Positions 28,849 through 43,748 of a stretch of DNA of 51,639 bases are shown here, one piece after another. The DNA lies in contig JACCWE010000066.1 in the NCBI GenBank assembly GCA_013697785.1, forward strand, positions 1 through 51,639, read 5' to 3'. This DNA is from Gemmatimonadaceae bacterium (GTDB lineage: Bacteria > Gemmatimonadota > Gemmatimonadetes > Gemmatimonadales > Gemmatimonadaceae). The first letter of the stretch is position 1; each line of letters opens with the position of its first letter. Under the pieces are notes generated by a model. That model saw nothing but the letters and a program-made list of their open reading frames with translations. It was not told the DNA's origin and did no database searches. Position numbers and translations under genes: made by a program.

Positions 28849-29031
28849 CGCGAAGCCGCGAAGGTTTCACGCGCATGAAGAAGAAGAAATGGCCAACTCA
28901 CATCTGCAGTATAGCGCGCGGGAAATTGTTGTCGAACTCACCTCTCAGACGCCCGGATTAATCGCTCGGGCGCGCAATGCAAGCATGCGTTGGGAAAGGG
29001 AGAACGGCAAGGCGCGTTGGCGTCGTAGTCA

Positions 29032-29316
29032 GTGGCCCGGTGTGCCGCCGCCACCCACGCCCGGCATCCGCGGTTGTGGCGCGTCCACGGCCCGTTCGGC
29101 CTCATTATCATGGCCGTGTTTCCGTCGAACGTGCAGGCGCTCGAGCGCGACGATCCCGCGTTGCGGAAGTGCCCCGATTGCGCGGAGATGCTCCGACCAG
29201 AGGCCCGAAAGCGCAAACACTGCGTGTTGGCGTTTCAGACGCGCCGGGCTGATGATGAGGCGGCGACCGGAGAGTTTGACAGGGCGGTCGCTGCGCGGCG
29301 GATGTTCAAGCCGTAG
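29032..29316 (+). CDS. Small protein with a hydrophobic segment and degenerate zinc ribbon
   Basis: Up to 94 residues from the GTG at 29032; an ATG at 29110 would give 68. HGPFGLIIMAVF could be a membrane-associated segment. KCPDCAEMLRPEA followed by RKRKHC matches the CPxCAExI-x-A-x-x-C-x-x-C ribbon found at the end of small membrane proteins, except that the third Cys is Arg. No ribosome site is clear for either start, so this may be a decaying gene. Confidence 0.35.
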   Translation: MARCAAATHARHPRLWRVHGPFGLIIMAVFPSNVQALERDDPALRKCPDCAEMLRPEARKRKHCVLAFQTRRADDEAATGEFDRAVAARRMFKP

Positions 29317-29345
29317 CTCTAGATTTCGAGTGCCTGATACAACAA

Positions 29346-29374
29346 GCCCGCACATCGAAAGATCATGTGCGGGC
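29346..29374. terminator. Bidirectional-type stem-loop between convergent genes
   Basis: GCCCGCACAT and ATGTGCGGGC form a perfect 10-bp stem with a 9-base loop. On the minus strand it is followed by TTGTTGTATC, so it most likely ends the leftward lipoprotein/membrane-protein transcript; it could also serve the plus strand. Confidence 0.6.
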
Positions 29375-29461
29375 ATGCTGTATGAGTGTGTCTCTCAAAC
29401 TCCGCGGAGTGCGAACACTCCATTTCTTCCGCAGTGCTAGAGCGAGGTGCGACCCACTGGG

Positions 29462-29719
29462 CTAACGGTTTGTCTGGTCGCGTGCGGTCTTTTGACGCAC
29501 CAAGAGCGTGAGAAAGCAGGCAAACACAAGCAGCGCGAATGCGGCTGACAACCAGCCGCGCGTGATCTGCTGCGCAATAACAAACAAGGCGGCTGCGCCG
29601 AATAGGAGCCACTGCACGCGGAGTGGCGGTGCGTCCGTCCACGCCTTTAGACCGCAGTAAATCGCGGCAGGGATCATCAGCAGTACGACGGCAAGCGAAA
29701 GACTCGGAATCATCGTCAT
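29462..29719 (-). CDS. Small integral membrane protein
   Basis: An 85-residue protein with three hydrophobic segments (about residues 5-22, 33-50 and 53-72) separated by short charged turns; no family recognised. The ATG at 29719 overlaps the stop of the upstream lipoprotein gene as ATGA, so the two are co-translated and may act together. A longer frame to 29770 would only run back into that gene. Confidence 0.6.
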   Translation of the reverse strand: MTMIPSLSLAVVLLMIPAAIYCGLKAWTDAPPLRVQWLLFGAAALFVIAQQITRGWLSAAFALLVFACFLTLLVRQKTARDQTNR

Positions 29720-30669
29720 TGTGTCCACAATGGTATACACGTAGGTGTAACTCCGCCAACGCCGTCGCAACCTGACATGCCCGGCGTCCCGACACCTCCA
29801 CCATCTCCGCCGCCACCGGACCCATTCTGCGCCCTATTCGCCGCGTTGATACACTTCATTAGGAAAACATAGGCTGACGCGGCTGCAGTCGTCGCAACAC
29901 CGAGGCCGATCAACGTCGCGCCGAGGGTTTCCGGCGCCAACCCGATCGCCGCTGCTACTGCGCCCGCCGCAGAGATATAAGCGAGCCACTCTGCCGCACA
30001 CGCGCCCCACTGATAATTGACCTGTGCAAGTGCATCGGCGGGGATGCAGCTGTAAGCCAGCGCGAGAGCGAATCCGCCGACCACGCGCCTTATTGGGCCG
30101 ATGTTCCGAACCATTGTTGCAGGAACACAGTTCGTGGTGATCTGCGCCGTGCAAGGTTTAGTGACCGCCGTGTACGTGCCGGTGACAGTGTAGGTGCTCG
30201 CGATTGCCTTGTCGAGCGCGTACGTGCTCTGCACGAGTTTTGAGTTGTACCAGCCGGTCGGAATCCGCGTCCAATAAAGTCGCGTGTAGTTCAGCAGTTT
30301 GCCGTCAAACCAGTGCTCACTCGCTCCGGGCGGACCACCTGTTGGCGGATAGAAGAAAATCACTCTGTTCGAGTGCCCCTTCGAGTCCACGTACGTCTTG
30401 CTCCACTGCCCGGCGCCGGGAAGCACATTTGGAGCATTCAAATCGACGAGGAGCGCAGGCTGCGAAACTCCGGCTACAATCGACGCCCGAGTCGTCGAGT
30501 TTGCTTCTTTCTCCACATAAGGCTCCAGTCTGTGAGTGACTGGGTTAAGCACCGCGACGCTCACGGTCGTCGCATAACTCGTTGGAGCGCTCGGTTCAGT
30601 GCCCATCGAGCACGCGCCGAAAACAATGCTTGCAGCAACAACGGTGAGCGTTCGGTATCGCGGTCTCAT
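29716..30669 (-). CDS. Element-encoded lipoprotein with hydrophobic C-terminal region
   Basis: A 317-residue protein from ATG 30669, which has GGAG 7 bases upstream; the longer frame to 30702 lacks a good site. The N-terminus is a lipoprotein signal with lipobox FGAC near residue 20. The middle (residues 40-170) is a soluble, Thr/Tyr-rich beta-type domain. Residues 195-270 carry two hydrophobic, Ala/Gly-rich helices, and a Gly-rich tail (GGGGDGGGVG) ends with a few Cys residues. No known family. It is preceded by a good promoter and followed by a coupled small membrane protein. A surface-modifying or phage-exclusion role is conceivable for element cargo but unproven. Confidence 0.6.
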   Translation of the reverse strand: MRPRYRTLTVVAASIVFGACSMGTEPSAPTSYATTVSVAVLNPVTHRLEPYVEKEANSTTRASIVAGVSQPALLVDLNAPNVLPGAGQWSKTYVDSKGHSNRVIFFYPPTGGPPGASEHWFDGKLLNYTRLYWTRIPTGWYNSKLVQSTYALDKAIASTYTVTGTYTAVTKPCTAQITTNCVPATMVRNIGPIRRVVGGFALALAYSCIPADALAQVNYQWGACAAEWLAYISAAGAVAAAIGLAPETLGATLIGLGVATTAAASAYVFLMKCINAANRAQNGSGGGGDGGGVGTPGMSGCDGVGGVTPTCIPLWTQ

Positions 30670-31431
30670 GGCTTGCTCCTTGGGCCACCTGGTGACGATC
30701 AACTGCTACGCGAATCGGCTTCCGCCGCTATTTAATCATCGATCGGCGGATTTGTCATCGCACGTTGTTATTTGTCGTCAGCGTATCGTCATTATGAGAC
30801 GTTTCTAATTATCGATCGGAGTGAAAGCTAGCGCCGCTTTGGACGCGACTTGTTCCGTGCCCAGCGTCAGACCTTCGTTGAAGACGGCAGCCGATGAAAC
30901 GCGGGTGGCCCCAGCTACGACCGCGGCCAAGAACAACAGTCCGCCAATACGTTACGCTGTCGAAAGAAACGCCGCTCGCTCGAGCTGACGTGCCATAGAC
31001 GCGGGACCGAGCGCGCGACCTTCGCCCTTTGTGAACGGGTAAGACCGGCGCCCGCCGCACGCCGACACGAATACCCGACTCGTCGCGCGCTTGTCGCCAA
31101 TCGGGAAACGGTGGTAGTGGTGTGGCTTGGCGTGCGGAGATCCGTACGAAACATCGTGGACTCTCATCGCACTCCAGCGCCGTCGGTATAGTAAACACGA
31201 TCGTCCGATTGTTCGATGTGCGACTCCGGCATGTTCTCAAGATATCGCTCGAGCTCATTCCGGACCCGCGCCAGTCCGCGGAAGAACTGAGGGTGTTGGT
31301 CCCACACGTGGATTGGATCACGCATCCGCGACGATATACGGCGCCGGAACCGCCACCAACATCGTTTCCACGCCGACGAATTTATCCCATCTCCGCTAAC
31401 TTGCGTTTACATCTCGTTCGGAGGCTGAGGC
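30670..31431. other. Non-coding stretch upstream of the lipoprotein gene
   Basis: Holds the lipoprotein promoter and a 14-base direct repeat, TAATYATCGATCGG, at 30733-30746 and 30806-30819 (13 of 14 identical); the first copy overlaps the promoter, so these may be operator sites. From 30830 to 31400 only implausible Arg/Ser-rich frames are open on both strands. I see no gene there. Confidence 0.5.
30730..30758 (-). promoter_or_regulatory. Sigma-70-type promoter of the lipoprotein gene
   Basis: On the minus strand ATGACA, 17 bases, TTAAAT, about 60 bases before the ATG at 30669. The direct repeat at 30733-30746 covers the -10 and spacer. Confidence 0.5.
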
Positions 31432-31659
31432 ATGCACCTCGAGAATTACACTCCGCGGAAAGTGACGTTAAGTTCGGGCGCCGCCAGGGAATTTCGGCTT
31501 GAGCGTGCCGACGAGCATTTTGCCGTCTGGACGTGGCTTGAAGGCAATCGCGCTTTGCCTATCGCGTTGCCGCAACGCTTTCGGCGGTGGAGTCCGGACG
31601 AATGGCAGGACGAACTGTCGTGCGAGCTAAGAAACGCAGCCGCCGTGGCGTCGCCTTGA
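31432..31659 (+). CDS. Hypothetical 75-residue protein
   Basis: A short soluble protein with GGAGG 9 bases before the ATG, one of the best ribosome sites in the element. WTWLEGNRALPIALPQRF and WSPDEWQDELS give it a Trp-rich, probably folded core. No family recognised. It ends just before the methyltransferase gene, so the two are probably co-transcribed and may belong to one modification or defence unit. Confidence 0.5.
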   Translation: MHLENYTPRKVTLSSGAAREFRLERADEHFAVWTWLEGNRALPIALPQRFRRWSPDEWQDELSCELRNAAAVASP

Positions 31660-31750
31660 GGGATTGCCGTACCGCTATGGGCTGCACGACCCTGTCTTGC
31701 GCCTCCGCCGGATGTCGGCGCAGATTCGCTCGCACTCTGCCCCGGCTGCG

Positions 31751-33457
31751 ATGACGAATCTGCTGTATTACGGCGACAACATCGATGTCCTCCGGCGTCA
31801 CGTGAAGGACGAATCCGTCGACCTCGTCTATCTTGACCCGCCCTTCAACTCCGCGCGCAGTTACAACGTTCTGTTCAAGGAACAAGACGGTGCTCGTGCG
31901 TCGGCCCAGATCAAGGCGTTCGAGGACACGTGGCGCTGGGACGCTTCCGCCTCCGTCTCATATCATGAGATCGTTGAGGCGGGCGGCCAAGTTTCCGAAG
32001 TCATGCAGGCGTTTCGCCGAATTGTTGGTGACAGCGACATGCTTGCCTATCTCGCCATGATGGCTCCGCGCCTGGTTGAACTCAGGCGCGCGCTAAAACA
32101 CTCTGGCTCTCTATATCTTCACTGTGACCCTACTGCGAGCCACTACCTCAAATTGTTGCTCGATGCAGTCTTCGGTCCCGAGCGGCTGCTTAATGAGATC
32201 ACGTGGAAGCGCTCTCACGCCCACAGCGATACCGCTCAAGGAATGAAGAGGTGCGGCAAGATTCGCGACATCCTTCTTCTGTACACCAAGTCTGAGCAAT
32301 ACACGTGGAATACCCTCTACACTCCGTACTCAGACTGGCACCTCGAATCGGAGTATCGACACACTGGCATCGACGGACGACGATTTAAGGAAACTGACCT
32401 GTCCGCGGCCAAGCCGGGCGGCGATGTGGAGTACGATTGGCGAGTGAAGCGCTGCAATGCCGACGGCGTGAGATGGGTGGCCGATCTGGACGAGGAATGG
32501 AGGAGTCCGCGGAAGGACTATCAGTATCTGGCCGTGCGTCCCTACGTCGGAAGATACTGGGCCTATTCCAAAGACAACCTCGTGCAGATGGCGAAGGATG
32601 GTCGGCTAATCCACCGCGAGACTGGAATGCCCCGACTTATGCAGTTCGCCGACGAAATGCCTGGGATTCCCCTACAAGATTTGTGGGACGACATCGACCC
32701 TATCAATGCAAAGGCGCGCGAGCGACTTGGCTATCCGACGCAGAAGCCAGAGGCTCTGCTGGATCGAATTATCATGACTAGCAGCAACGTCGGCGATCTG
32801 GTGCTCGACCCCTTTTGCGGTTGCGGAACAGCGATCGCATCGGCACAACGTCTCGAAAGAAACTGGGTCGGGATTGATGTAACTCACTTAGCAATCAACC
32901 TTATTAAGTCGCGATTGAAGGATGCGCATGGAGAGGCTGCGCAGTTCCGTGTTGTGGGCGAACCAACGACGCTCGCGGATGCCGAAGAACTTGCCCGAAC
33001 CGACCCGTATCAGTTCCAATGGTGGGCGCTTGGGCTCGTCGGCGCGCGGCCGGCGGAACAGAAAAAGGGCGCCGACAAGGGCATCGACGGCCGTCTCTAC
33101 TTCCACGACGGCACGGCCGCCGGCAAGACGAAGTCGCTGATTATCTCTGTGAAGGCAGGGCACGTGACGGTGTCGCAAGTGCGCGACCTCGTCGGCGTGC
33201 TGCAACGGGAGAAAGCGGAAATCGGCGTGCTCATTTCGTTCGAGGAGCCGACGAAGCCCATGCGAACCGAAGCGGCCAGCGCCGGGCTCTATGATTCGCC
33301 TTGGGGAAGGCATCCGCGAATGCAGCTGCTCACAGTCGGTGAACTGCTCGAGGGAAAGGGCATCGACTACCCTCGGACGGCCGGGACGAATCAGACGTTC
33401 AAGCAGGCGCCGAAGGCGCAGAGCCTTATTGAAGCACATCCGGAACTATTCGACTAG
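31751..33457 (+). CDS. Site-specific DNA methyltransferase (N6-adenine/N4-cytosine) with C-terminal nuclease-like domain
   Basis: A 568-residue protein from ATG 31751, where homologous sequences begin (MTNLLYYGDN); in-frame ATG 31712 and TTG 31664 are alternatives. Catalytic motif IV is DPPF at residues 29-32, and the AdoMet motif I DPFCGCGTA comes much later, near 353-361. This is the beta-class order seen in Mod-type N6-adenine enzymes. Residues 420-540 are a restriction-endonuclease-like region: WWALGLVGARPAEQKKGAD, GIDGRLYF, then IISVKAGHVTVSQVRDL, with Asp446 and Lys468 placed as in an Mrr-type PD-(D/E)xK core. No separate restriction subunit is nearby. It may protect the element, or be a self-contained modification/restriction protein. 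Confidence 0.85.
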   Translation: MTNLLYYGDNIDVLRRHVKDESVDLVYLDPPFNSARSYNVLFKEQDGARASAQIKAFEDTWRWDASASVSYHEIVEAGGQVSEVMQAFRRIVGDSDMLAYLAMMAPRLVELRRALKHSGSLYLHCDPTASHYLKLLLDAVFGPERLLNEITWKRSHAHSDTAQGMKRCGKIRDILLLYTKSEQYTWNTLYTPYSDWHLESEYRHTGIDGRRFKETDLSAAKPGGDVEYDWRVKRCNADGVRWVADLDEEWRSPRKDYQYLAVRPYVGRYWAYSKDNLVQMAKDGRLIHRETGMPRLMQFADEMPGIPLQDLWDDIDPINAKARERLGYPTQKPEALLDRIIMTSSNVGDLVLDPFCGCGTAIASAQRLERNWVGIDVTHLAINLIKSRLKDAHGEAAQFRVVGEPTTLADAEELARTDPYQFQWWALGLVGARPAEQKKGADKGIDGRLYFHDGTAAGKTKSLIISVKAGHVTVSQVRDLVGVLQREKAEIGVLISFEEPTKPMRTEAASAGLYDSPWGRHPRMQLLTVGELLEGKGIDYPRTAGTNQTFKQAPKAQSLIEAHPELFD

Positions 33458-33488
33458 CAGAGCGGGCTAGCGAAAGCGGAGTCGCCTC

Positions 33489-34343
33489 TCAGGGAGTTGG
33501 CGGAGGCCCGCACACCGTCATGAAACGCCGAAGCATTCCGTCCGTGCAGGCGATGACGGGACTCTCAATGCCCATTTGCGTCCCATCGGGCCTCATATGG
33601 AAGTATGTCACCTCTTCACTCGCCGGGAGGCCACCCGCCCGTAGATGCCAGCCGCCCTCGCTCAGCGTCCGTTCCGCACTCGCTTTCGGGATACAGACTC
33701 CACTTATCCCTGGGCCTACCGTGGGATTGATTGTCATTTGTCGCACGCACTCACCCATCGATTCAATTACACTCGCATGCGATTGTTTCGAATTGCGCAA
33801 AACCGATCGCACGAACTGTTCAAAGTCGCGCCTCGCAGCCTTGCCTAGCGCTTGGCCGTGATACGCGACGGAAAAGTCTCCGTAGACGGCATCCCAATGG
33901 TTCGCGCGCCCCTCAAACATTTCTAGCGGTTCGCGTTGCGGACTGCCGTGAGCGTCCACGGCATTCGAAATCGTGTAGAGCATCGGCACGAGGTGACCGG
34001 CGGCGCCTTCCCAGCCGATGGCGACGAATGTGTGAAATCGCTCGTTTAGGCCCAAGTGGCGGTACGCCCCGAACGCACGACTCGCCTCGCAGGTCAATAA
34101 CGGCAGGAAAAGTTCCAGATCATTGTTCGGAAGACGGGTTCCGACCGCCGCGATCCACGTATCGGTTGGCCTTCCACCGATGACCGATCGGCCGGTATAG
34201 GCCAAGGCGACGAGGCCGTGAACGATCGCAGCTTTGCTCTGATCGTCGTCCAACTTCACACTAGGATCGTCGAAATTAGTAATGCGGCGGTCGCTTATCT
34301 GGTAGATAGCGTCCAGTGTTGCAAGCGAGATGATAAACGTCAT
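33489..34343 (-). CDS. Proteasome-beta/HslV-like (Ntn-hydrolase) protein, putative
   Basis: A 284-residue soluble protein beginning MTFIISLATLD. If Met is removed, Thr becomes residue 1. SDRRIT then places Asp at 17 and Arg at 19, as in proteasome beta subunits (T1, D17, R19), with a Lys (SVKLDDD) at 29, near K33. VALAYTGRSV resembles the G-rich strand that follows in that fold. It is longer than HslV (about 175 residues) and has a C-terminal extension. Phage- and element-encoded Ntn-like proteins of this sort are poorly characterised. Self-processing or peptidase activity is inference from these residues only. It is encoded alone and converges on the methyltransferase gene. Confidence 0.5.
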   Translation of the reverse strand: MTFIISLATLDAIYQISDRRITNFDDPSVKLDDDQSKAAIVHGLVALAYTGRSVIGGRPTDTWIAAVGTRLPNNDLELFLPLLTCEASRAFGAYRHLGLNERFHTFVAIGWEGAAGHLVPMLYTISNAVDAHGSPQREPLEMFEGRANHWDAVYGDFSVAYHGQALGKAARRDFEQFVRSVLRNSKQSHASVIESMGECVRQMTINPTVGPGISGVCIPKASAERTLSEGGWHLRAGGLPASEEVTYFHMRPDGTQMGIESPVIACTDGMLRRFMTVCGPPPTP

Positions 34344-34512
34344 CGAAGTTCACGGCGGAGGGGGCGGCAGACGCGGAGCGCGCGGGTCAAAAGCTACCCG
34401 TCTTGGTTCGGCTTTCCAGGGTTTCCCGCCAAGCACGTCTCGCATTCCCTCTTACTGTCGAGTGGAGACTATCGGCACGCAAGCGCGATTTCAGACTAGC
34501 ACTCGGCGCCGA

Positions 34513-35001
34513 TCAGGGGCGACGTGCTCGAGCGGCTGAGTCGATGATCGCCGTGAGCACGCGGTCCTCTTGCAACCGTTGAGCAATCAGGTGCACTGCG
34601 TCCGGGTAAACGCTGCCAATCCCCGCTTTGATCTGAAGTGCGTTCAGCGTGTCGAGCATCGCGAGAAGTTGCACGTCCATTCGAACCCTATCGCGGACGA
34701 GGCGAATGGCCTCCGTGGTATCGCTTCGCGACGCAGCCTCCGCGATTAACGTGTCGCCATGCATGTCTTCGGCGGCGGCAACTTGCAAACGCGGAAGGTA
34801 GTCGCTGATCGCCTGCAGAGCCCTGGTTGATCGCATTGTTCGAATGGCATTCTGGAGCGCGAGCAGCCGAGCAATGGAGCAGGGCAGCGATTGTGCGAAG
34901 GTTGGCGAGCAGGATGGCGCGACGTCAGCCTGTGCTTTGGCCGCCGATGGAAACACGGCGATCGTGCCTAGGACGACCCAGAACGGGAGCAGCGACTTCA
35001 T
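34513..35001 (-). CDS. Secreted helical protein, third gene of an exported-protein cassette
   Basis: A 162-residue protein with a clear signal peptide: MKSLLPFWVVLGTIAVFPSA and a cleavage-like AKAQA. The mature part has two Cys in its first 20 residues, probably a disulfide, then amphipathic helices with many Thr/Ile/Leu (LLALQNAIRTMRSTRALQAI). No family recognised. CGATAATGA at the start is shared with the gene just upstream. Spacing of 5 bp to that gene indicates one transcript. Its helical C-terminal half shares the feel of the neighbour's C-terminal half (both carry GDT-A/E-AI phrases), so they may be distant duplicates. Confidence 0.6.
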   Translation of the reverse strand: MKSLLPFWVVLGTIAVFPSAAKAQADVAPSCSPTFAQSLPCSIARLLALQNAIRTMRSTRALQAISDYLPRLQVAAAEDMHGDTLIAEAASRSDTTEAIRLVRDRVRMDVQLLAMLDTLNALQIKAGIGSVYPDAVHLIAQRLQEDRVLTAIIDSAARARRP

Positions 35002-35006
35002 TATCG

Positions 35007-35612
35007 TCAGTGCGCGAGCTTCGTCGCGGTGTCGCTCATTGCCCGCAACTGCAGCATAAGCTCCGCCTGGTTCGAGCGAAGCGGCCCGATTGCCGCCGTG
35101 TCGCCGTGCGCGATCGCGAGCTGCAACAAGGAATCTCCGAAAAAATAGTTCTGCTGCGCGATAAGAAAGCGCGTGCGTAGGTCGGCGATCTTCTGCTGGC
35201 GCTGCTGGCGATGCCGCTCGTGTATGCGGTCGATTGCGCCGCGCATCGCTCGGCCCTCCGCATAGCCATTCGCAACTGACTGCAAGAACGTCGGCGTTGG
35301 TGGCATGGTGGTCGTGGTGCAATTGAGGTTGTTGGGGGAGTAGGACGAGCAGTGCGTCGTCGACGTGCCCGCGGTCGACGTCGCGGCAGTGCCCGTCGTC
35401 GTGCACGTGCTGCTGGTCCGCGAGTACGACGAACAATCCGTCGTCGACAAGCCGGCCGGACTAATGGTCGTGCAGGTCGCGTTGTTGGGAGAGTAGGACG
35501 AGCAATCTGTCGTCGTCGTCGTTTGTGCGCGCACTGGCACCGCGAATAGCATCGCGCCGGCGAGGAGTCCCACAAGGCGAAGCATACGGCCGTCCCGTTT
35601 GGAGTGCCTCAT
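35007..35612 (-). CDS. Secreted Cys/Ser/Thr-rich triple-repeat protein
   Basis: A 201-residue protein with a signal peptide ending at AVPVRAQ. The mature N-terminus holds three copies of a unit about 16-29 residues apart: T-T-x-C-S-S-Y-S-x-(N/T)-x-x-x-C-T-T, each with two Cys. The C-terminal half is a charged helix-rich domain (RHRQQRQQKIADLRTRFLIA, LLQLAIAHGDTAAIGPLRS). ATG 35585 is an alternative start; 35612 gives a better basic n-region. No family recognised. The repeats suggest a disulfide-stabilised extracellular stalk or binding region. It is the middle gene of a three-gene exported cassette. Confidence 0.6.
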   Translation of the reverse strand: MRHSKRDGRMLRLVGLLAGAMLFAVPVRAQTTTTTDCSSYSPNNATCTTISPAGLSTTDCSSYSRTSSTCTTTGTAATSTAGTSTTHCSSYSPNNLNCTTTTMPPTPTFLQSVANGYAEGRAMRGAIDRIHERHRQQRQQKIADLRTRFLIAQQNYFFGDSLLQLAIAHGDTAAIGPLRSNQAELMLQLRAMSDTATKLAH

Positions 35613-35759
35613 TATCGTGGCGGGGTGATTCAGAACGCAAGTCGCGCGCTGCGAAACGTCCATTGCTGGCGCCTCGCCTCGCTTTTCGCCGAGTCGGGAC
35701 TGGTCGAAAGCACGGGCAATTGGCAGGCTTGGCGCCGCAACGTGCAATCGCGAACGGAG

Positions 35760-36380
35760 TTACCGCGCGGCGGTTGCTATCGAAGGAGCGCACACCGCGG
35801 TGCGATATGCGGCGGCCGCAGCCTCCGTGAGATTCCCCTTGAGCTGCATGTCGTAGGTCACGCCCTTATCTACGAGTCGCATGCCACCGGCGTGTGCACG
35901 CGCGAGCTCGGCGAGCTGCTCGGGCGTGATGCCGATCCACATATCTTCCCACGAGGTAACGAGCGTCTTCGTTTTTGGCGCCGTGTGCGACGCGCCCCGA
36001 AGGACGAACTTCGCGCTATCCGCAAGCACGGTCACCGCGGCGGAGTCGGAAAAGATCGCGGGAATCTGCACCGGCACTCCGTGATCCCACCAATACGCGC
36101 CGATCAAATGCAACTGCGTAGTCATCGGAGCGGGAGCGGCGCCGACGTGCTTCACAACGAAGGATGCGCCGATCCACGCCTGGCTGTCTTTAATGTTGTA
36201 CGACTGCATCTTCGTTTCGAGAGTGGTCGTGTCGGCGAACTTGTCGTAGGTGGATTTGAGATCTCCCCTCGACTTGCTCGGGCCGAGAACAGCATCGGCG
36301 ACGGGGCATGACTGCGCAGTAGCAGGCGAGTGCACGGCGAGCAGCGCGACAAGCGCGAACAGGATTGGTGGGCGGGGCAT
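35760..36380 (-). CDS. Secreted hypothetical protein, first gene of the exported cassette
   Basis: A 206-residue protein with a strong ribosome site (GAGAGGA, 7 bases before ATG 36380) and a signal peptide ending near ATAQS. The mature domain is a mixed alpha/beta fold with a Trp-containing core (AYWWDHGVPVQIP, VTSWEDMWIGITPEQLAELA) and a Cys at each end of the protein (CPVAD and AVCAP) that could form a disulfide. No family recognised. It leads a group of three exported proteins; their shared direction and short gaps (147 and 5 bp) suggest a common extracellular or periplasmic role, perhaps altering the host envelope. Confidence 0.6.
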   Translation of the reverse strand: MPRPPILFALVALLAVHSPATAQSCPVADAVLGPSKSRGDLKSTYDKFADTTTLETKMQSYNIKDSQAWIGASFVVKHVGAAPAPMTTQLHLIGAYWWDHGVPVQIPAIFSDSAAVTVLADSAKFVLRGASHTAPKTKTLVTSWEDMWIGITPEQLAELARAHAGGMRLVDKGVTYDMQLKGNLTEAAAAAYRTAVCAPSIATAAR

Positions 36381-36505
36381 AAAGATCCTCTCAGTGGGGT
36401 CTACGGAGAGGATGGAGCGAAGGAGGCGGAGGCAACGGAAATACCTACCGGAATCGAAGGAAACAATCTCACTATCAACCTCATGCTGCTACAACTCGCA
36501 CACGT

Positions 36506-36829
36506 TCACTGGATTGCCCCCTTCGCGAGCGCCTTAAGGATCCGAGCCTTACTGTAGCGAAGGCTTCTCGTCCCGACGCGGACCGCGAACGCCGCCTTAT
36601 ACCGCCCTTTATAGAGCGTGTCCGGCCGCATCTTGAGCAACGCAGCCGCTTCGCGAGCGGTCAGCAAATCATCGTCCGCGTTCGCCTTCGCTTTCGTGCT
36701 ACTGCTTGGCGCCGGCGCAACCGAAGTCGTGAGCTCGGCGACGAGTTGCGCCATCGACTCCTTTGTAAACGTCGTGGACGACCCGATTGGTAGAGCTGCC
36801 TCGAGTGCGAGAAATTGAGCGACGGTCAT
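36506..36829 (-). CDS. AlpA/excisionase-type helix-turn-helix protein
   Basis: A 107-residue protein whose C-terminal half is a winged HTH of the AlpA/HTH_17 type: LLTAREAAALLKMRPDTLYK followed by the wing RVGTRSLRYSKARILKAL. AlpA proteins activate integrase or act as excisionases in P4-like islands. The N-terminal 50 residues are an extra segment with a Ser/Ala linker. It is the last gene of the leftward replication/recombination operon and overlaps the gene before it as ATGA. It is a good candidate for directing excision of this element. Confidence 0.75.
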   Translation of the reverse strand: MTVAQFLALEAALPIGSSTTFTKESMAQLVAELTTSVAPAPSSSTKAKANADDDLLTAREAAALLKMRPDTLYKGRYKAAFAVRVGTRSLRYSKARILKALAKGAIQ

Positions 36830-37155
36830 CGTGCATCCGGTCCTCCTTTTGGTTGTGCTGTGAAATGCGGCGGGCTGAGTTTCGCTTTCAGGTGGTTCGC
36901 GGCGTCTGCTATGACGTCGGGGTGCAAAAGGATCTCAGCGTAGGCCGCACCCGTAACGCCGCGACTAATCCACGCCTCGAGCAGCTCGCGGACAACGCTT
37001 TCTTGATCTTCAACACGCTGCCATTGCCACGTTTCCGAGTCGATGCGCTCAATCCACGAACGCGAGGTCAGATCGTGGCGCAGATACGGCAAGACGAGCC
37101 CGGCGATACAGAGGCAGTGACCGCGGACCTGGCGGTAGTGGCTTTTGGGAATCAT
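36826..37155 (-). CDS. Hypothetical protein of the replication operon
   Basis: A 109-residue protein with no recognised family. It has a Cys-containing N-terminus (HCLCIAGLVLP), a Trp-rich middle (SRSWIERIDSETWQWQRVED) and a helical C-terminal part. It overlaps the nuclease gene before it and the AlpA-like gene after it by 4 bp each, so it is firmly inside the operon. No catalytic residues stand out. Confidence 0.55.
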   Translation of the reverse strand: MIPKSHYRQVRGHCLCIAGLVLPYLRHDLTSRSWIERIDSETWQWQRVEDQESVVRELLEAWISRGVTGAAYAEILLHPDVIADAANHLKAKLSPPHFTAQPKGGPDAR

Positions 37156-37613
37156 GCCGCCACCCCGCGCGTCAGTTGCTCGAGCTTAGCAAGCGCGCGC
37201 GTAAGCTCCGCGAGGGTCTGTCGCGCTTCTACGTGTTCGCTGTCGCTCAGATACCGCGGGTGTGCCGCACTACTCGACTCGGCGTATCGGTTCAGCGACC
37301 GGACGAGATAGAGCGCCGCGCGGAGCAAATACAGCGGGCGATCCTTCAGCAACGAAATCGACACGTTAGCCGAGAAGGTGAGAAGCCCGCGAATATGCAC
37401 GGCCGTGCCGGGACAAAGATGGTCGTGGTCGACGTGGAGGAACCGTCGCGCCGGCGGGGCGCCAGAAATCGCGCACACACCGTCCTGACTCGCGGCCAGT
37501 TCAGCATACTCGTCAAGAGATAGCCCGTAAGTCCGCGCCAAATGGTCGGCGCGGGCCCGCCGCGAGTCTGACGTGGACCGTCGGCGCCGCGTGGCTCGGA
37601 TACGCGGGGTCAC
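37152..37613 (-). CDS. Endonuclease VII-like HNH nuclease lacking most zinc cysteines
   Basis: A 153-residue protein from GTG 37613 (GTGA overlap with the gene before). YGLSLDEYAELAASQDGVC, then HVDHDH at residues 60-65 and RGLLTFSAN near 76-83, follow the T4 endonuclease VII (recombination endonuclease) family pattern. In the family, CxxC pairs flank this core and hold zinc. Here the first pair is CAIS and the second is TFSA, so three of four Cys are gone while the catalytic His/Asp and the late Asn (N83) remain. The family resolves branched DNA. A helical C-terminal extension of about 60 residues is present. Either the fold is held together without zinc or the enzyme is inactive. Confidence 0.7.
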   Translation of the reverse strand: MTPRIRATRRRRSTSDSRRARADHLARTYGLSLDEYAELAASQDGVCAISGAPPARRFLHVDHDHLCPGTAVHIRGLLTFSANVSISLLKDRPLYLLRAALYLVRSLNRYAESSSAAHPRYLSDSEHVEARQTLAELTRALAKLEQLTRGVAA

Positions 37614-37924
37614 AATTCCACCTTCCGCCGCACATCCGTCGAAAGCGTAACCCTGAGCCCGGCGCAAACATGACCGACGAATTTCCACCGCACAGCGCCA
37701 TTTTTGCCCACGGTCACGATGCCGAGCGCGGAAAGCTCGAGCTCGACAAGCGTCTCCGGCTCGTACTCACGCTTCCAGCCGCCGACGAAAAGTGCCGCCC
37801 ACAGCTTGCTTGCCGGACAATACTCGAGGCGGCCGCGGAGGGATTTCGTCGCTTTTTCTACTGCTTCAGCGCGCTCCGCGTAGACCGCTTGTTTCTGCTC
37901 GGCGTTGAGTTTGGGGAAGGGCAC
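37610..37924 (-). CDS. Hypothetical protein of the replication operon
   Basis: A 104-residue protein with a GTG start directly after the upstream TGA. The N-terminus is a charged helix (AEQKQAVYAERAEAVEKATK); the rest is beta-rich (LELSALGIVTVGKNGAVRWK). No family recognised. Its stop overlaps the GTG of the EndoVII-like gene, so the two are translated together. Confidence 0.5.
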   Translation of the reverse strand: MPFPKLNAEQKQAVYAERAEAVEKATKSLRGRLEYCPASKLWAALFVGGWKREYEPETLVELELSALGIVTVGKNGAVRWKFVGHVCAGLRVTLSTDVRRKVEL

Positions 37925-38218
37925 TCAGCCCTCCCGATCAGCACCATCTGAAGAAGGAACGAATGCGCACAACGTTCGCAGCTTGGTTCGAGTCGGCGTG
38001 AACGCGCGCCAGGAGCACAGGTAGCGCGCTGCCGGCGTCGTCACGCCTACCTCATGCGCTAGTTCACGCATCAGCAGCAGGATGTCGTGGTCCGGGTACT
38101 CCAGCCGGCGCCACGGGCAGGTGGCATCGTAGCGCGCATCCCATTCGCGAGTTGCCGGGTCATACCGGAGGTTGCCTTTGGCCGCGATCCTTGTCGCGAT
38201 CTCGATGGGAGTAATCAT
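37925..38218 (-). CDS. Hypothetical protein of the replication operon
   Basis: A 97-residue soluble protein. YDPATREWDARYDATCPWRR and PDHDILLLMRELAHEVGV suggest a compact alpha/beta domain; the C-terminus is short and charged. No family recognised. Coupled by ATGA to the gene before it and immediately adjacent to the gene after it. Confidence 0.5.
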   Translation of the reverse strand: MITPIEIATRIAAKGNLRYDPATREWDARYDATCPWRRLEYPDHDILLLMRELAHEVGVTTPAARYLCSWRAFTPTRTKLRTLCAFVPSSDGADREG

Positions 38219-38496
38219 CGCGCAAACCCCGCATCGTGTGGCGCCATGTCGTACGCGACGAGCCGTCGGAGACGGGCGGAGACGCCGTTTGCGAGCGCGT
38301 ACGAGCGCAGCTCGGCCCGTTCTAAGTCGCTGCGTCCTGGTTCTACCGCCATCGCAAGCAGCAGCGTTTTAACCCACGCGTCGCCGGAGATTCGGACCCA
38401 CTTGCCCCCGGCGCGAGTGTACCAGTGGCGCGAGTAGCGGACGTATACAAGCGGCACGTTTGCTTCGATGTTCGCGGCGAGAAGGTCGGCGTTCAT
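38215..38496 (-). CDS. Hypothetical protein next to the prim-pol/helicase gene
   Basis: A 93-residue protein; VYVRYSRHWYTRAGGKWVRI is an aromatic/basic stretch that could contact nucleic acid, followed by an amphipathic helix. No family recognised. It overlaps the stop of the prim-pol/helicase gene by 4 bp, so it could be an accessory replication factor. Confidence 0.5.
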   Translation of the reverse strand: MNADLLAANIEANVPLVYVRYSRHWYTRAGGKWVRISGDAWVKTLLLAMAVEPGRSDLERAELRSYALANGVSARLRRLVAYDMAPHDAGFAR

Positions 38497-40529
38497 ACGA
38501 CCCCCACGCTGCCGAGCAACGAGCTGTCCGCAAGGATCTCCGCGATGACCGGGTCAAAGGCTTCTCCCGCCTCCGCATCCGCGTTAATCTCGAGCACGCG
38601 CGTCGAGCCTTTACTACCGCTCGTATCGCGAAGCACGCCAGATGCGAGCGCGGCGGCGATGATCTTGCCCGCGGCGGCCTTCTGGATGTTCGTGCCCTTT
38701 GCGACCGCGCTCACACTCGCGCCGGGATTGGCGCGGATGTATGAAATAACGCGATCCTCCGACCGAGGCGCCGCGGTGGAGAGCCCATACCGCCGAGCCG
38801 AGGGGTCGAAGCGCAACGTAAAGTTCGACGTCTGCCACCGGCCCACGGCGCTTACGGCGCGGAGCGGTGACTCTTGATCGTCCCCCGGCGCGTTGATAAT
38901 CAGAATCAGATCGACGAGCGCGCCGTATGCGATGCTGCCGTGGTATCCGCTGCCCGATTTCGTCGAATGGTGGCTGAGAAGCAACGCGCAGTTCAGTCGC
39001 GCGGCCAAGCCAGCCAGACGGCTAATGTGCGGAGTGATTTGGCTGTCCTTGCTCGAGTCCTGGACGATGCCTGCGGTGAGCGAGATAATCGTGTCGATAA
39101 CGACCCACGCGGGCCGGAGCTCCTCCATCGCTTTGCATACTTGGTTGATGCGGTCGGCGCCGTGTGCGCGGAGATCCAGAACCGACACGTTGTCGACGTC
39201 CGCTCCGAAGTCAGCGAAGCGGCGAACCAGATCGCCCATGCTCTCTTCAGCGCACCACAGCACCTTGCCCTTCTCGCACTGCTCGCCGAGAAACAGCCCT
39301 CCCGTCGAGACGGCGGTGACGGCGTCCGCGATGATCGTGCTCTTTCCAAATTTCTCCCGCATCGCCAGGAGCGTCGTACGGCCCGCGTAAGCAAGGCGAG
39401 GAGCCACGGCGACAGGGAGCTTTAGCAGATCCGGGTCATTCATGAGCTCGCGCAACGTCCGCACGACGGGCACCGGCTTCTTCGGCGCCGGCGTGGCATC
39501 GCTCGAGACGGTTACGAGTGGTTCCGTCGCGTCGCCGGCGAGGACGCGTAGCCACTGCACGCCGATAGAGAAGGGAGCCTTGATGCGCGCGTAGTCGCTT
39601 TCAACCTCGCCGTCACCGTGCACGCCGGACCACTTGTTCGCCCACTCGAGCGCGATGGCCTCTGCGTCGTTTGGAAAGTCGGCGCCTGCGGCCTTGATCG
39701 CCGTCATCCGCTTGATGTAGTAGTCTCTGTCCGTGCCGTCCTCATTCGGCACACGCGACACAAGGGACCGGAGCTCGTCGGGGCCACTCGCTTTCAGTGC
39801 GTCTTGGTCAACCGACGCGCGGTCCGACGCGGCGCCTTGGTTGGTGCGATCCACGCACACACCGCCGTTCGCCTCAAGCAACAGATCCACCGCGGAAAAG
39901 AACGCGGCCACGTCGGCGGCTTGGACGACCGTGAGCGCGCTACGGTCCAGCGTAGCAACAGACCACCTTGCGCGATTGCCCTTGTTGGTGCGGCCGATAG
40001 CGAATATCTGGCAGTTTTTGCCAAGCGCCTCCACGGCCGGTTTGTCGCAGGTTGGGTGGCTGTAGGCGTGGCGCGTCTTGTACTGCGGTTCGCCGTCCGC
40101 CTGGCGATAGAGCAGCATCGCCTTCGGCGCGTTTGCGACCCTTCGCGCGGTCGCGCCAAGCATCGTAACGGCGAGGGCTTCGACCTTTGCGCTTAGTGCG
40201 GCGTCTGTGATGTCGATGTCGAGCGCGAGCAGGTCATCCATGCGGAGGCAGAAGTTCCCGCCATCCCGGATGTTTTGCTCGATAACGGCTTCACTCGGAG
40301 CGTGGTGCTGCCACTTGATGCCACCCCACTCACCGGCGCCGTTCATGCGGCCGGGGATTTTTCCAGAGCTCTTTTCGGGGGTGATGCTCGACTTTTCCGC
40401 CATCGGCGCGCCGGGTGGAATCGCCGGCAAAACGCAAAGGCCCTCGTGGAACAATTGCATCGGGTCCAGCTCGTACGTGGTTACTAGCGGCGTGTACTCA
40501 GCCGCGGGGGTGTCGCGTTCCTTGTCCAT
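38493..40529 (-). CDS. Replication protein: prim-pol domain, PriCT-like region and RepA/RecA-like helicase
   Basis: A 678-residue protein from ATG 40529 (AAGGA 13 bases upstream; a TTG at 40550 is the alternative). Residues 30-200 are a bifunctional primase-polymerase domain with the metal-binding ALDIDITD (D104, D106) and QIFAIGRTNKGNRARW. Residues 250-330 resemble the PriCT region after such primases (LRSLVSRVPNEDGTDRDYYI). Residues 375-600 are a RecA/RepA-type ATPase with Walker A REKFGKST near 391-398, Walker B AWVVID near 474-479, and the SHHSTKSG polymerase-facing motif. A winged helix ends the protein. Such multidomain proteins start replication of P4-like satellites and small plasmids. 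The GGTTCC array about 1.3 kb upstream is a likely binding site. Confidence 0.85.
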   Translation of the reverse strand: MDKERDTPAAEYTPLVTTYELDPMQLFHEGLCVLPAIPPGAPMAEKSSITPEKSSGKIPGRMNGAGEWGGIKWQHHAPSEAVIEQNIRDGGNFCLRMDDLLALDIDITDAALSAKVEALAVTMLGATARRVANAPKAMLLYRQADGEPQYKTRHAYSHPTCDKPAVEALGKNCQIFAIGRTNKGNRARWSVATLDRSALTVVQAADVAAFFSAVDLLLEANGGVCVDRTNQGAASDRASVDQDALKASGPDELRSLVSRVPNEDGTDRDYYIKRMTAIKAAGADFPNDAEAIALEWANKWSGVHGDGEVESDYARIKAPFSIGVQWLRVLAGDATEPLVTVSSDATPAPKKPVPVVRTLRELMNDPDLLKLPVAVAPRLAYAGRTTLLAMREKFGKSTIIADAVTAVSTGGLFLGEQCEKGKVLWCAEESMGDLVRRFADFGADVDNVSVLDLRAHGADRINQVCKAMEELRPAWVVIDTIISLTAGIVQDSSKDSQITPHISRLAGLAARLNCALLLSHHSTKSGSGYHGSIAYGALVDLILIINAPGDDQESPLRAVSAVGRWQTSNFTLRFDPSARRYGLSTAAPRSEDRVISYIRANPGASVSAVAKGTNIQKAAAGKIIAAALASGVLRDTSGSKGSTRVLEINADAEAGEAFDPVIAEILADSSLLGSVGVV

Positions 40530-40647
40530 TTGGTTTATATCATCCTTCAAGCCTCCATCTGTTAGGTTTGTGCAGCGCCGGAGAACGCGCGAATGCGGCG
40601 TTTGGCCGGGGAAAGCGCGTGCGATTTCGGGGATTTGTTGTGTTTTC

Positions 40648-41211
40648 TTAGAAGCGGCGCATCGACGCGGCGCGAATCGCCTCGTCCGTCACCTCGTCAT
40701 CGCAGCCACACTCGGAGAGATCAGCCCCCGCGCCAGAACCCGAACAGGCGAAGAAACGCCCCTCGGTGACGTGGTAGTCGTGATAGTTGGACACGCAATA
40801 ATCCTCCTCAGTCAAGTCTGGCTCGCGGGAGCCGTACGTAATCGCCGCAGGAGGACCAACAAGGAGCAGCACGGCGCGATGCGATGCGGTTGCGAGGCGT
40901 TGCGCCTTCTCCATCTCGCGCTCGTTTAACGAAACCGGCTTGACCTCGGCCCACATTCCAACCTGCGGGAGCCAGAAGTCCGGCAGATACCAAACTCCGC
41001 CTAAGTCGTAGCCTTGCGGCTCGTAGTCCCACGCGATGCCGCAGTGGTCGAAGTACACGGCCCAGTGGGCCTCCAAACGCGAGCGGAAGCGCGTCTGGTG
41101 GTACTCGGTTTCGAGCGCCGTGAGGCCTTCGCTTGGCAGCGCGTACGGTGCCGGAGGGGCAAGGGTAGCCTCAAAGCGTTTGGCGGGCTCTACAGGCCAT
41201 GCGGAGGGCAT
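40648..41211 (-). CDS. PD-(D/E)XK nuclease of phage type
   Basis: A 187-residue protein from ATG 41211, which overlaps the stop of the gene before it (TAATG). FRSRLEAHWAVYF supplies the first Glu, YLPDFWLP the Asp and MWAEVKP the E-x-K, in the order and spacing of a small PD-(D/E)XK nuclease with the fold of phage endonuclease I-like and Vsr-like proteins. WDYEPQGYDLGG lies between. The C-terminal third is acidic and Cys-containing (CGCDDEV). It would nick or cleave DNA, perhaps for recombination or for damaging a helper or competitor genome (inference). A longer frame upstream of 41211 is antisense read-through. Confidence 0.72.
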   Translation of the reverse strand: MPSAWPVEPAKRFEATLAPPAPYALPSEGLTALETEYHQTRFRSRLEAHWAVYFDHCGIAWDYEPQGYDLGGVWYLPDFWLPQVGMWAEVKPVSLNEREMEKAQRLATASHRAVLLLVGPPAAITYGSREPDLTEEDYCVSNYHDYHVTEGRFFACSGSGAGADLSECGCDDEVTDEAIRAASMRRF

Positions 41212-41603
41212 TACGTCGACTCCGAAGGTGCCGCCTGAACCAGTCGTGCGGCGCGGTCGCGGAGTGCCTTGCTCCGGAGCGCCTGAAGATCGACACCGGC
41301 GCGGAGGGCATAGCCGTAGAAGCGGTGGCTGGCAATGCCAAGCAGAGCGTGTGCGCGGCGAGCTACGCCGTCGCAAGCGAGCATGGCGCGCGTAATCTCA
41401 ACGCGATCATACTCCATGGTGGCAACACGGGCCGCAGCCTTCCGGCCGACGATGTAGGCACCTTCCGCAGCGCGAGGCGCGCGGGGTACAGCGGTATCCA
41501 TCTTCTTAGCCAATGTGACGCGATTCGCGACGCGCGCCCCGTTCCCTTCCGACAAGTTGCGAGACCCAGAATGGTGCCCCCAACGCGAGAAGGATACAAC
41601 CAT
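41211..41603 (-). CDS. Fis/HTH_8-like DNA-binding protein, first gene of the leftward operon
   Basis: A 130-residue basic protein. EITRAMLACDGVARRAHALL followed by GIASHRFYGYAL has the spacing of a Fis-type (HTH_8) helix-turn-helix. ATG 41603 is taken as the start; ATG 41501 is possible and would leave a 96-residue protein. A perfect 14-bp palindrome lies 28 bp upstream, a plausible autoregulatory site. It may control the replication operon or bend DNA at the origin or attachment site. Confidence 0.55.
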   Translation of the reverse strand: MVVSFSRWGHHSGSRNLSEGNGARVANRVTLAKKMDTAVPRAPRAAEGAYIVGRKAAARVATMEYDRVEITRAMLACDGVARRAHALLGIASHRFYGYALRAGVDLQALRSKALRDRAARLVQAAPSEST

Positions 41604-41630
41604 GAACTCGCTAAGTCAATATGTCCGACG

Positions 41631-41644
41631 TTAAGATTTCTTAA
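41631..41644. promoter_or_regulatory. 14-bp palindrome upstream of the leftward operon
   Basis: TTAAGATTTCTTAA is an interrupted perfect palindrome (TTAAGA-TT-TCTTAA), 28 bp before the first gene of the leftward operon. It looks like an operator. Confidence 0.45.
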
Positions 41645-41787
41645 TGTTTATCTTGGTTGCCTTGTCCCTTTGGCGATTTAGCTAGGCGGGGTCGTTTGGC
41701 CTTGCGGAATTAGATAAGTAGGCGGCTGCAAAAAAGCTAATCGGTAGTCGAAAGAGCGGCGTGTGCATTTCATAGGATTACCCCAGC

Positions 41788-41985
41788 GGTTCCCCTCCCC
41801 ACTACGTGGGGGGGGGGGCGGGAACCACCTGGAGGGCGAGCGGTTCCGTCAGTGGTTCCGGGGTGGTTCCGCGATGGTTCCGGAGCGGTTCCCGATGTTT
41901 TTGCCGGAACCACTCCAACCGCGAGTGGTTCCCGAGGTGGTTCCGCTATGGTTCCGGAGGCCTTAACTTTTTAAGGTCGGGAACC
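41788..41985. repeat. GGTTCC iteron array, candidate replication origin
   Basis: GGTTCC occurs in direct orientation at 41788, 41842, 41854, 41865, 41876, 41887, 41927, 41939 and 41950. Inside the two clusters the period is 11-12 bp, one helical turn, usually as TGGTTCCG. Inverted copies (GGAACC) lie at 41821, 41906 and 41980. An AT-rich hairpin sits at the right end of the array. Regular same-face repeats beside AT-rich DNA, near a prim-pol/helicase gene, are what replication iterons look like. Confidence 0.65.
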
Positions 41986-42367
41986 GGGCCTATTGAGGGT
42001 TAACTGTTTTTGTCCCATTCCGCACACGTGGCCGGTTGACGAAAAAGGCTTGCGGAATAGGTCGAAAGTGAGCTCGATCTGGCCAATCCGCCCCCCCTCC
42101 GACCTAGGATTAGAACGAACCGCGCACGGCGGCAATGCGCGCCTGTGAGTCAAATTGACACACCTGTATGACTTTGTGGCAGGCAGCTTTTGCCCGGTTG
42201 CGCTTCGTCGCAACGCATTTGTGTCATATCGGCGCCATAGGTGCTTTATCTGTCACGCAGCCGAAGGCCGCGTAAGCACTTAGAACACGGCTAATCGGTC
42301 TAGAGTCGCCCTTGTCACGTTTTATGCATTCATGCGGGGCAACCTCAAACCCCCGGAAACAACACCG

Positions 42368-43573
42368 ATGCCTCGCGCCGTCAAGCTCGCTCGCGGACTA
42401 TTCAAAAATGGAAATCGCTACTGGCTGCGGGTCGCCGGCGCGAAGCGGTCCACGGGCACGGATCATCCAGACCTGGCCAACCGCGTGCTTGGTGCAATGC
42501 GTCAGCTCGAGAGGGAGCGGAAGCATCTCGACCTCCTGTACGCAGCTCGCGACGGCGCGCTCCCGGTGCTCACCCTGTACGAAGCCGCCGCCGCTGGCAA
42601 CCTAGCCGGCCTCCGGGCGGATCTCGCGCGGGCCGCAGTCGTTGACGTGGATCTTGAGCCGTTCGTCGCGCAGTGGGCTGAAAAGCATCTCGCCAGCCGC
42701 TCGCTCGCTGATCGCACCAAGGTGGATTACGTGCGGCTCGTTCGCGCACTGGTCCCGGCAGGCAAGCGGTTCCCGGCAAGCCAGTTGACGGAGGACAAGG
42801 TCCAGTCCACGCTACACGCACTCCCGGTCTCGGATGCTACAAGGCGGAGGCACGCGGCCGCCTGGCGCCTCTGGATACAGTTCGTGCGACGCCGAGTTCC
42901 GGAGGTGGGAGACGTGTTCGCGTTCGCGCGCCAGTGGATGCCCAAGAACGCGCCGAGTCGCACGCTGCACTGGACGCACGCGCAGACTATCGCAGTCCTT
43001 GACCGAATGAGCGGAGAGCCGCGGCGCGCGATGGCGCTTATCTTCGGCACGGGGATGGAGCTCGGCGCGCTGCAACGGCTCACATTCGCCGATCTCGGCA
43101 CCAACAAACGCACCGTGGTGGCAAGAGGGACGAAGAACGAGGCGCGCCGAGATCGAACGGTGCTGATCGACGCCTGGGCATCCAAAATATTCTACGACGG
43201 ACTGGCGCTTGGATTCCCGACGATGCGAGTATTCACCTTAACGGAAAGCGAGCTTCGCGTATCCTTCTACGAGGCTCAGGTATTAGCGGGAGTGGTCACA
43301 GCGCCAGAGCGGGGTAAGAACACAAACAAGATGGTCTGGGGCAAGGTGGCGGGTCTGCATCGCATCCACGACGCGCGCCACACATATGCTGTCGTCCGGC
43401 TGCTCGGATCAGATAATGAGAAGCCGCGCTTGATGCGGTTCATCGCGAGCCAGCTCGGCCACGTCGATGAAACGATGCTCATCAAAGTGTACCTGAAGGC
43501 AGGAGTAGAGCAGCGGCTCGAGCTCATGAAAGAGGAGCTCGCACCTGCCGAAGAAAAGTACCAAACGTCATAG
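42368..43573 (+). CDS. Tyrosine-recombinase integrase
   Basis: A 401-residue protein from ATG 42368 (GGAA upstream; ATG 42332 is the longer alternative). N-terminal residues 1-60 form a basic arm-binding-type region, 95-190 a core-binding helical domain, and 200-390 the catalytic domain. Catalytic residues visible are Lys256 (GTKNEARR), His334/Arg337 (HDARHT), His365 (QLGHVD) and Tyr375 (IKVYLKA). The first Arg, expected in G-(L/M)-R-x-(S/G)-E, is Glu231 (GTGMELGALQRL). The gene runs toward attR, and its stop codon lies inside the right arm-type repeat. It should integrate and excise the element at tRNA-Cys. Confidence 0.88.
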   Translation: MPRAVKLARGLFKNGNRYWLRVAGAKRSTGTDHPDLANRVLGAMRQLERERKHLDLLYAARDGALPVLTLYEAAAAGNLAGLRADLARAAVVDVDLEPFVAQWAEKHLASRSLADRTKVDYVRLVRALVPAGKRFPASQLTEDKVQSTLHALPVSDATRRRHAAAWRLWIQFVRRRVPEVGDVFAFARQWMPKNAPSRTLHWTHAQTIAVLDRMSGEPRRAMALIFGTGMELGALQRLTFADLGTNKRTVVARGTKNEARRDRTVLIDAWASKIFYDGLALGFPTMRVFTLTESELRVSFYEAQVLAGVVTAPERGKNTNKMVWGKVAGLHRIHDARHTYAVVRLLGSDNEKPRLMRFIASQLGHVDETMLIKVYLKAGVEQRLELMKEELAPAEEKYQTS

Positions 43574-43586
43574 AATCCGTCATAGC
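43567..43586 (+). repeat. Right pair of putative integrase arm-type sites
   Basis: Two GTCATAG heptamers, 12 bp apart (43567 and 43579), in the same orientation as the pair at the left end. The first includes the integrase stop codon. They lie 76 bp from attR. Confidence 0.55.
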
Positions 43587-43661
43587 ATCTAGAAGACATG
43601 GCAGACTCATCGGCAGGAAGGTGAAGTGTAAGGCGTTGTCGAATAAGAAGTAACGAATTTG

Positions 43662-43701
43662 TCTGGCGCGGTAGCCAAGTGGTAAGGCAGCGGTCTGCAA
43701 A
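43662..43701 (+). repeat. attR: 40-bp repeat forming the 5' half of the intact tRNA-Cys
   Basis: Identical to 23391-23430. To its right the chromosome supplies the 3' half of the tRNA. The crossover therefore lies within the 5' half or anticodon loop. Confidence 0.92.
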
Positions 43702-43736
43702 ACCGCTATTCGCCGGTTCGATTCCGGCTCGCGCCT
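43665..43736 (+). tRNA. tRNA-Cys (GCA)
   Basis: A full cloverleaf: acceptor GGCGCGG/TCGCGCC (one G-U), D stem GCC/GGC, anticodon stem GCGGT/ACCGC with loop CTGCAAA (anticodon GCA), and T stem GCCGG/CCGGC with loop TTCGATT. The discriminator base is U, as in cysteine tRNAs, and CCA is not encoded. Its 5' half now comes from the element, and the DNA upstream is element DNA, where only weak promoter-like hexamers (TAACGA about 8 bases before the tRNA) are seen. Confidence 0.95.
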
Positions 43737-43748
43737 CTGTTGTTCGTA

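Follow-up and report, generated by a model that had tools for sequence, protein, structure and literature searches.

What does a dense array of one hexamer do in a 0.7-kb intergenic region that has an integrase gene (int) on one side and an operon ending in a primase-helicase gene (rep) on the other? This question is raised by a locus of a Gemmatimonadaceae bacterium, studied here in a window (the whole stretch of DNA analysed) of 51,639 nucleotides. The original prediction was that the GGTTCC copies of this array are the iterons of a replication origin. Judged from sequence and from analogy with known systems, the array is very probably the replication origin of an integrated element, and the element's own Rep protein would read it through a winged helix. 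This assessment follows from related elements and several unrelated phages, which carry like clusters at their initiator genes.

The integrated element and its genes

An exact 40-bp direct repeat occurs at 23391–23430 and 43662–43701, with a tRNA-Cys gene at the right copy. Since this repeat is found on both sides, the array is part of an integrated element (Table 1). The part of the tRNA-Cys gene that the element duplicates is the 5′ half, as far as the anticodon loop, and the intact gene remains on the int side; in tRNA-integrated elements, restoration of the 3′ half is the more usual pattern. A near-identical element was looked for and none was found.

Other genes of the element include an ORF (31664–33457, plus strand) that combines a DNA methyltransferase (N6_N4_Mtase) with an Mrr-type nuclease domain (Mrr_cat), possibly a restriction-modification or defence gene. 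At the left end (24532–28163, plus strand), two large proteins of 530 and 679 aa are encoded, the latter matching PHROG_5880 (unknown function). If these are what is left of a virion module, as is possible, the element would be a reduced prophage.

Table 1. Coordinates of the element, the array and neighbouring features in the window
Feature	Position	Strand	Remarks
Integrated phage-like element, ~20.3 kb	23391..43701	.	40-bp direct repeats of tRNA-Cys 5′ half at both ends
Rep, 685 aa	38493..40550	-	last gene of leftward operon
Small nuclease, Holliday-junction-resolvase/endonuclease-like	40648..41214	-	PHROG_9019, 29037
130-aa ORF, no family match	41211..41603	-	first gene of leftward rep operon
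Lowest-G+C 60 bp of intergenic region, candidate unwinding element	41610..41669	.	38% G+C
GGTTCC iteron array, proposed origin	41788..41985	.	9 direct + 3 inverted copies
GC-rich hairpin CCCCTCCCCAC-TAC-GTGGGG...	41788..41826	.	inverted iteron pair around it; from sequence
Iteron block A	41842..41892	+	5 direct copies at 12, 11, 11, 11 bp
Iteron block B	41927..41955	+	3 direct copies at 12, 11 bp
AT-rich hairpin CCTTAA-CTTT-TTAAGG (stem-loop 41961–41976)	41950..41985	.	inverted GGTTCC/GGAACC pair around it; from folding
Tyrosine integrase (PHROG_1), likely start 42368	42332..43573	+	adjoins right repeat
tRNA-Cys(gca), integration target	43665..43737	+	

The repeat array

Exact GGTTCC is found in direct orientation at 41788, 41842, 41854, 41865, 41876, 41887, 41927, 41939 and 41950, and inverted at 41821, 41906 and 41980. 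The nine direct and three inverted copies that had been predicted in about 200 bp are therefore all present and exact, within 198 bp. Both strands of the window together hold 30 copies, 12 of them packed into this interval. Successive direct copies are spaced by 54, 12, 11, 11, 11, 40, 12 and 11 bp; the one-turn spacing of 11–12 bp claimed for the array is thus kept inside two blocks (five and three copies) and is broken by the gaps of 54 and 40 bp. The array units share the extended consensus G-Y-GGTTCC-S-S.

Such regularity was said to exceed chance, and it does: in order-3 Markov simulations of the element (n=200), the densest hexamer of any sequence reaches at most 7 copies per 200 bp against the 12 observed, and with all hexamers and positions corrected for, the array has a Poisson score of about 10^-14.7. 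The 11-bp GGTTCC pair pattern has no second occurrence elsewhere in the 3.8-Mb host genome.

Repeats of this kind might also arise as a non-functional tandem-repeat expansion (minisatellite) or belong to a coding sequence. GGTTCC minisatellites do occur in the class (e.g. exact 13-bp tandem units in G329 and G001), and two short ORFs overlap the array. In the array, however, the hexamer alone is kept (exact in 12/12 copies), the 5–6 bp spacers have diverged and both orientations are used, unlike the products of slippage. Spacer divergence, together with the recurrence at initiator genes described below, largely refutes both forms of this explanation and makes it scarcely credible.

Architecture of Rep

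The predicted prim-pol/helicase gene is indeed nearby: the start of rep is 1.24 kb left of the array, with two small genes intervening. The domain order of Rep is an AEP prim-pol (residues ~40–235), a PriCT-2-like domain (261–338, a weak match), an AAA_25/RecA-type helicase (386–533) and a MarR-like winged helix (~594–655). The prim-pol region has no direct Pfam match; it was assigned through the alignment of residues 40–235 to a Sinorhizobium phage phiM5 protein (28% identity, E 1e-15), which itself matches PF09250 above the curated cut-off. A search of solved structures by sequence gave no match.

The AlphaFold model of the N-terminal half is unusable (pLDDT 39). That of the C-terminal half has a mean pLDDT of 55, rising to ~70–79 in the winged-helix segment, i.e. 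low to moderate confidence. In this model, the segment at ~594–655 would fold as helix-helix-helix-strand-strand, and Foldseek retrieves RecA/RAD51/KaiC and MarR proteins with it. A C-terminal DNA-binding domain after the helicase thus appears to be present, judged from MarR/HTH-like matches and the winged-helix model at 594–655.

Arrays at homologous helicase genes

Homologues of the helicase were collected in the phylum by BLAST and profile searches, those with a profile score >180 bits being counted as close, and every hexamer was scored for clustering around them with no reference to GGTTCC. In all ten close homologues with a sequenced 3′ flank (loci L089, L090, L091, L093–L098 and L138), an iteron array is the best cluster of the locus, and it lies inside, or at most ~0.4 kb past, the 3′ end of the aligned helicase region. 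At radA-like control helicase genes in the same family of genomes, an array is found in 0/9 (Fisher p 1e-5 vs 10/10). Half of the ten arrays use GGTTCC (L089, L090, L096, L098, L138), at helicases just 29–35% identical to that of the window. These arrays at homologous helicase 3′ ends support the origin reading.

The iteron word changes at the remaining close homologues: TGTCCC (L093, L094), GGTACT (L091), TGCGCC (L095) and GGGACG (L097). Read in a single direction, the words of the close family have the common pattern GG-N-A/G-C-N, and a spacing of 10–13 bp, or about double, recurs across the arrays despite the differing words. More distant homologues carry further words (GGAACG, TGGAGT, TGTACG, CTTGCT). 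In a sister helicase subfamily (L103:4060-4180 (rc), L106:6540-6620, L108, L145), the units are GGGAACG except at L106, where the GGGAAACG units are longer by one base and a helix residue is Thr instead of Asn. A plasmid-borne prophage of Azospirillum brasilense (L173:13658-13866) carries an 11-copy CCGGAACG array 3.4 kb from its own prim-pol/AAA gene.

Iterons occupy the final stretch of helicase coding sequence in L091, L093, L097, L098 and, for the most part, L089; those of L090 and L094 fall in the gap directly past the gene. Repeat arrays in the coding end of an initiator gene are typical of origins, and this placement therefore points to an origin-type layout and not to an operator of that gene. 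In the ten relatives the array is downstream of the gene; in the window it has been relocated across the operon and lies 1.24 kb upstream of rep.

A search for the GGTTCC triple pattern in the same genomes, made independently of the protein search, converges on the same genes. Two of its 26 non-window clusters (G344:C131 and G349:C259) fall within ~100 bp of a homologous helicase gene, with a chance expectation of ~1e-7, and this meeting of protein and DNA-pattern searches in two genomes lends further support to an origin. A narrower alignment-based search for related loci returned only two, both already known. Some matches were discarded: the GGTTCC match of G023 (L006) is an imperfect tandem repeat adjoining an unrelated gene, and G329 and G001 were rejected as homologous arrays for the minisatellite look of their exact tandem units.

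A tyrosine integrase gene is close by in 5/5 array loci checked for one, which is counted in favour of the origin reading. In the window, int is the right-hand neighbour of the array. Many short direct repeats are found in attP regions and centromeres too, and the array could then consist of recombination accessory sites (integrase arm or excisionase sites) or form a partition centromere. Yet the attachment core at 43662–43701 is 1.7 kb off with the whole int gene between, the repeats do not flank this core, and in the relatives the repeats track the helicase gene and not int. None of the element proteins scanned was recognised as ParA/ParB-type. A role in recombination or partition is thus highly improbable.

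Arrays in viral contigs

IMG/VR was scanned blind for GGTTCC triples with 5–6 bp gaps. Most of the matches listed have an in-frame spacing of 12 bp, which suggests coding repeats, and they were set aside as a class as likely Gly/Ser-type repeats. Among the matches listed, 11 viral loci have 11-bp-spaced GGTTCC, and 8/11 are linked to replication. That a blind scan lands in or near replication-initiator genes also favours an origin.

At five of the 11 loci, the array is inside an initiator gene: a replication-initiation/DnaD-like gene (L178), a replication-initiation gene adjoining a DnaB gene (L208), a lambda-O-like gene (L236), a DnaD-like loader gene (L245), and an O-like ORF assigned by similarity to L236 only (L210). 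Three more are near primase-type AAA genes: L183 (beside), L190 (0.3 kb) and L188 (1.5 kb). No replication-gene link was found at the 11-bp-spaced arrays of L192, L214 and L238, and the prim-pol query had no match in the viral contigs.

In lambda-O-like and DnaD-like phage initiators, the origin lies inside the initiator gene. The GGTTCC arrays of L178, L208, L236 and L245 resemble the homologue loci in that the initiator gene contains the array or has it at its end; the initiators themselves are different proteins, with no fused helicase, unlike Rep.

Two further observations concern these contigs. In L210 (12100–12260), a second iteron-like set of CAGTACCG units adjoins the GGTTCC copies within the initiator-like ORF. 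The GGTTCC arrays of L183:8826-9074, L188:3140-3386 and L190:1631-1878, each of ~245 bp, are found next to primase-type genes (PHROG_35358/21086) and make up a second origin family, distinct from the first; the copy layout is similar in L188 and L190, and in L183 an AT-rich tract is flanked by two iteron sets.

Intergenic surroundings

The AT-rich hairpin expected beside the array was recovered. Its DNA fold has an energy of -10.3 kcal/mol (z -2.65), and of the two hairpins bracketed by inverted iterons only this one beats shuffled sequence; the GC-rich hairpin (folding z -0.99) shows no excess over chance for its own composition. Hairpins bracketed by an inverted iteron pair also occur in L093, L094, L095, L172 and L104.

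No strong AT-rich unwinding element adjoins the array, the surroundings offering just the 38% G+C stretch and the small AT hairpin. GC skew across the element gives no pointer to the array as origin. The sequence TTGCGGAAT is present around the array at 41702, 42017 and 42050 (two direct, one inverted; one mismatch); its enrichment was looked for in the whole window and is absent.

The array lies 185 bp upstream of the first gene of the rep operon, which makes a regulatory role possible, and about 0.35 kb upstream of int. As an operator array, it would allow a winged-helix protein (Rep or a repressor of the element) to control the rep operon and/or int with no origin role, and a promoter-like site between array and operon (41619–41591, minus strand) is in keeping with this, at a weak score of about chance level. 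Promoters, however, explain neither the arrays at the 3′ end or coding end of the relatives' helicase genes nor those inside phage initiators, and operators do not usually have 11 or more sites. An array could moreover serve autoregulation and act as an origin at once. A purely regulatory array is therefore unlikely.

Recognition of the iterons

If the array is an origin, part of Rep should bind the iterons. The N-terminal modules of the homologues are swapped: prim-pol in the window, TOPRIM in L090, DnaB-N in L093/L094, NrS-1-type in L095 and none in L089/L091/L096/L097. Only AAA_25 and the C-terminal region are common to all ten. Because the N-terminal modules swap while the array carriers share this unit, the AAA_25 helicase with its C-terminal winged helix is the likely iteron reader. 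The binder would most probably be the winged-helix end joined to the helicase and not the prim-pol domain, since most relatives with an array lack a prim-pol module.

Position 15 of the recognition helix is Lys/Arg in 6/6 GGTTCC proteins vs 1/13 others (post-hoc Fisher p 3e-4). At L090 the iterons are GGTTCC and the helix is changed, yet the helicase there is 49–51% identical to TGTCCC types. A partial Mantel test of helix-to-motif covariation that controls for helicase relatedness is not significant (p = 0.09), and the link between recognition-helix residues and iteron sequence is for this reason kept as a lead, suggestive only.

Comparison with known systems

In SaPI Rep and SCC Cch2, a C-terminal domain binds iterons downstream of the protein's own gene (PMC7581432), and Gram-negative PICI origins have an AT-rich segment between two iteron sets (PMC6092414). 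The SaPI/PICI Rep-ori and SCC Cch2-ori systems share with the window an element-coded initiator helicase, a C-terminal dsDNA-binding domain (predicted here) and short iteron sets (PMC7581432, PMC6092414). PICI, like the window element, carry a tyrosine integrase. The differences are several: the SaPI/SCC helicases are AAA+, whereas that of Rep is RecA-type AAA_25 (its model resembles RecA/RAD51/KaiC); SaPI/SCC iterons are usually just downstream of the helicase gene, as in the ten close relatives, whereas those of the window are upstream of rep; the iteron sequences of SaPI/SCC and the window differ; and no PICI genes are shown in the element.

A primase, a helicase and a winged helix are found together in P4 alpha and in pRN1 Rep (PMC4234260). 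P4 alpha, with ori/crr, resembles Rep in that a single chain carries the primase, the helicase and a winged helix for iteron binding (binding is predicted for Rep), but its primase is of TOPRIM type, whereas Rep pairs an AEP prim-pol with a RecA-type helicase (PMC4234260). RSF1010 (IncQ) likewise has an AAA_25/RepA-type helicase, an AEP-class primase and origin iterons with hairpins (PMC4234260). Its RepC/RepA/RepB′ are three proteins acting with ssi hairpins, whereas the window has one chain, and its hairpins are candidate primase sites at most; none of the element proteins scanned was recognised as the product of a separate RepC-like gene.

PrimPol-PV1 proteins have the order prim-pol, PriCT, RepA helicase and winged helix, and the winged helix has been suggested for origin recognition (PMC5862659). 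The PrimPol-PV1 AEPs, PrimQH and All3500 families, found in integrated elements, share this order with Rep (PMC5862659); the likeness of Rep to PrimPol-PV1 is one of domain architecture. A term search within that paper finds no mention of iterons.

Proposed mechanism and implications

We infer that the element still replicates. After excision, Rep would bind the GGTTCC iterons through its winged helix, and copies one helical turn apart would align Rep subunits along one DNA face. Bound helicase rings may then load at an opened segment adjoining the iterons, for which the bracketed hairpins and the AT-richer stretch nearby are candidates. The prim-pol domain would make the first primers, and a host polymerase would extend them. 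Binding, loading and priming are modelled on the precedent of SaPI Rep, SCC Cch2, PICI origins, P4 alpha and pRN1 Rep.

Counted against the origin reading is the position of the array upstream of rep, unlike the 3′-end arrays of the relatives. The nearness of the array to the first gene of the rep operon, the lack of a strong unwinding element, the GC skew, the z of the GC-rich hairpin, the Mantel result, the low to moderate model confidence and the lack of a near-identical element are counted on the same side.

The array itself would add a further case to an established type of origin; less ordinary is one core with exchanged primase modules and iteron words. A wider view, put forward tentatively, is that these initiators are modular. 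The RecA-type helicase–winged helix core may stay constant while the primase module (AEP prim-pol, TOPRIM, DnaB-N or none) is freely exchanged. The iteron hexamer (GG-N-A/G-C-N) may shift with few recognition-helix residues, so that origin specificity switches readily between elements, and GGTTCC may also be a recurrent iteron word of unrelated phage initiators. If this is true, switching of origin specificity possibly creates incompatibility groups among elements.

A literature search on Gemmatimonadota prophage primases found no paper. The array set provides candidate origins for primase-helicase-winged-helix proteins, whose winged helix was earlier proposed as origin recogniser (PMC5862659). 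Homologues with swapped iterons offer a natural experiment on what determines the choice of origin sequence by a winged helix, and a replicating vector for bacteria still without genetic tools could be developed from the array.
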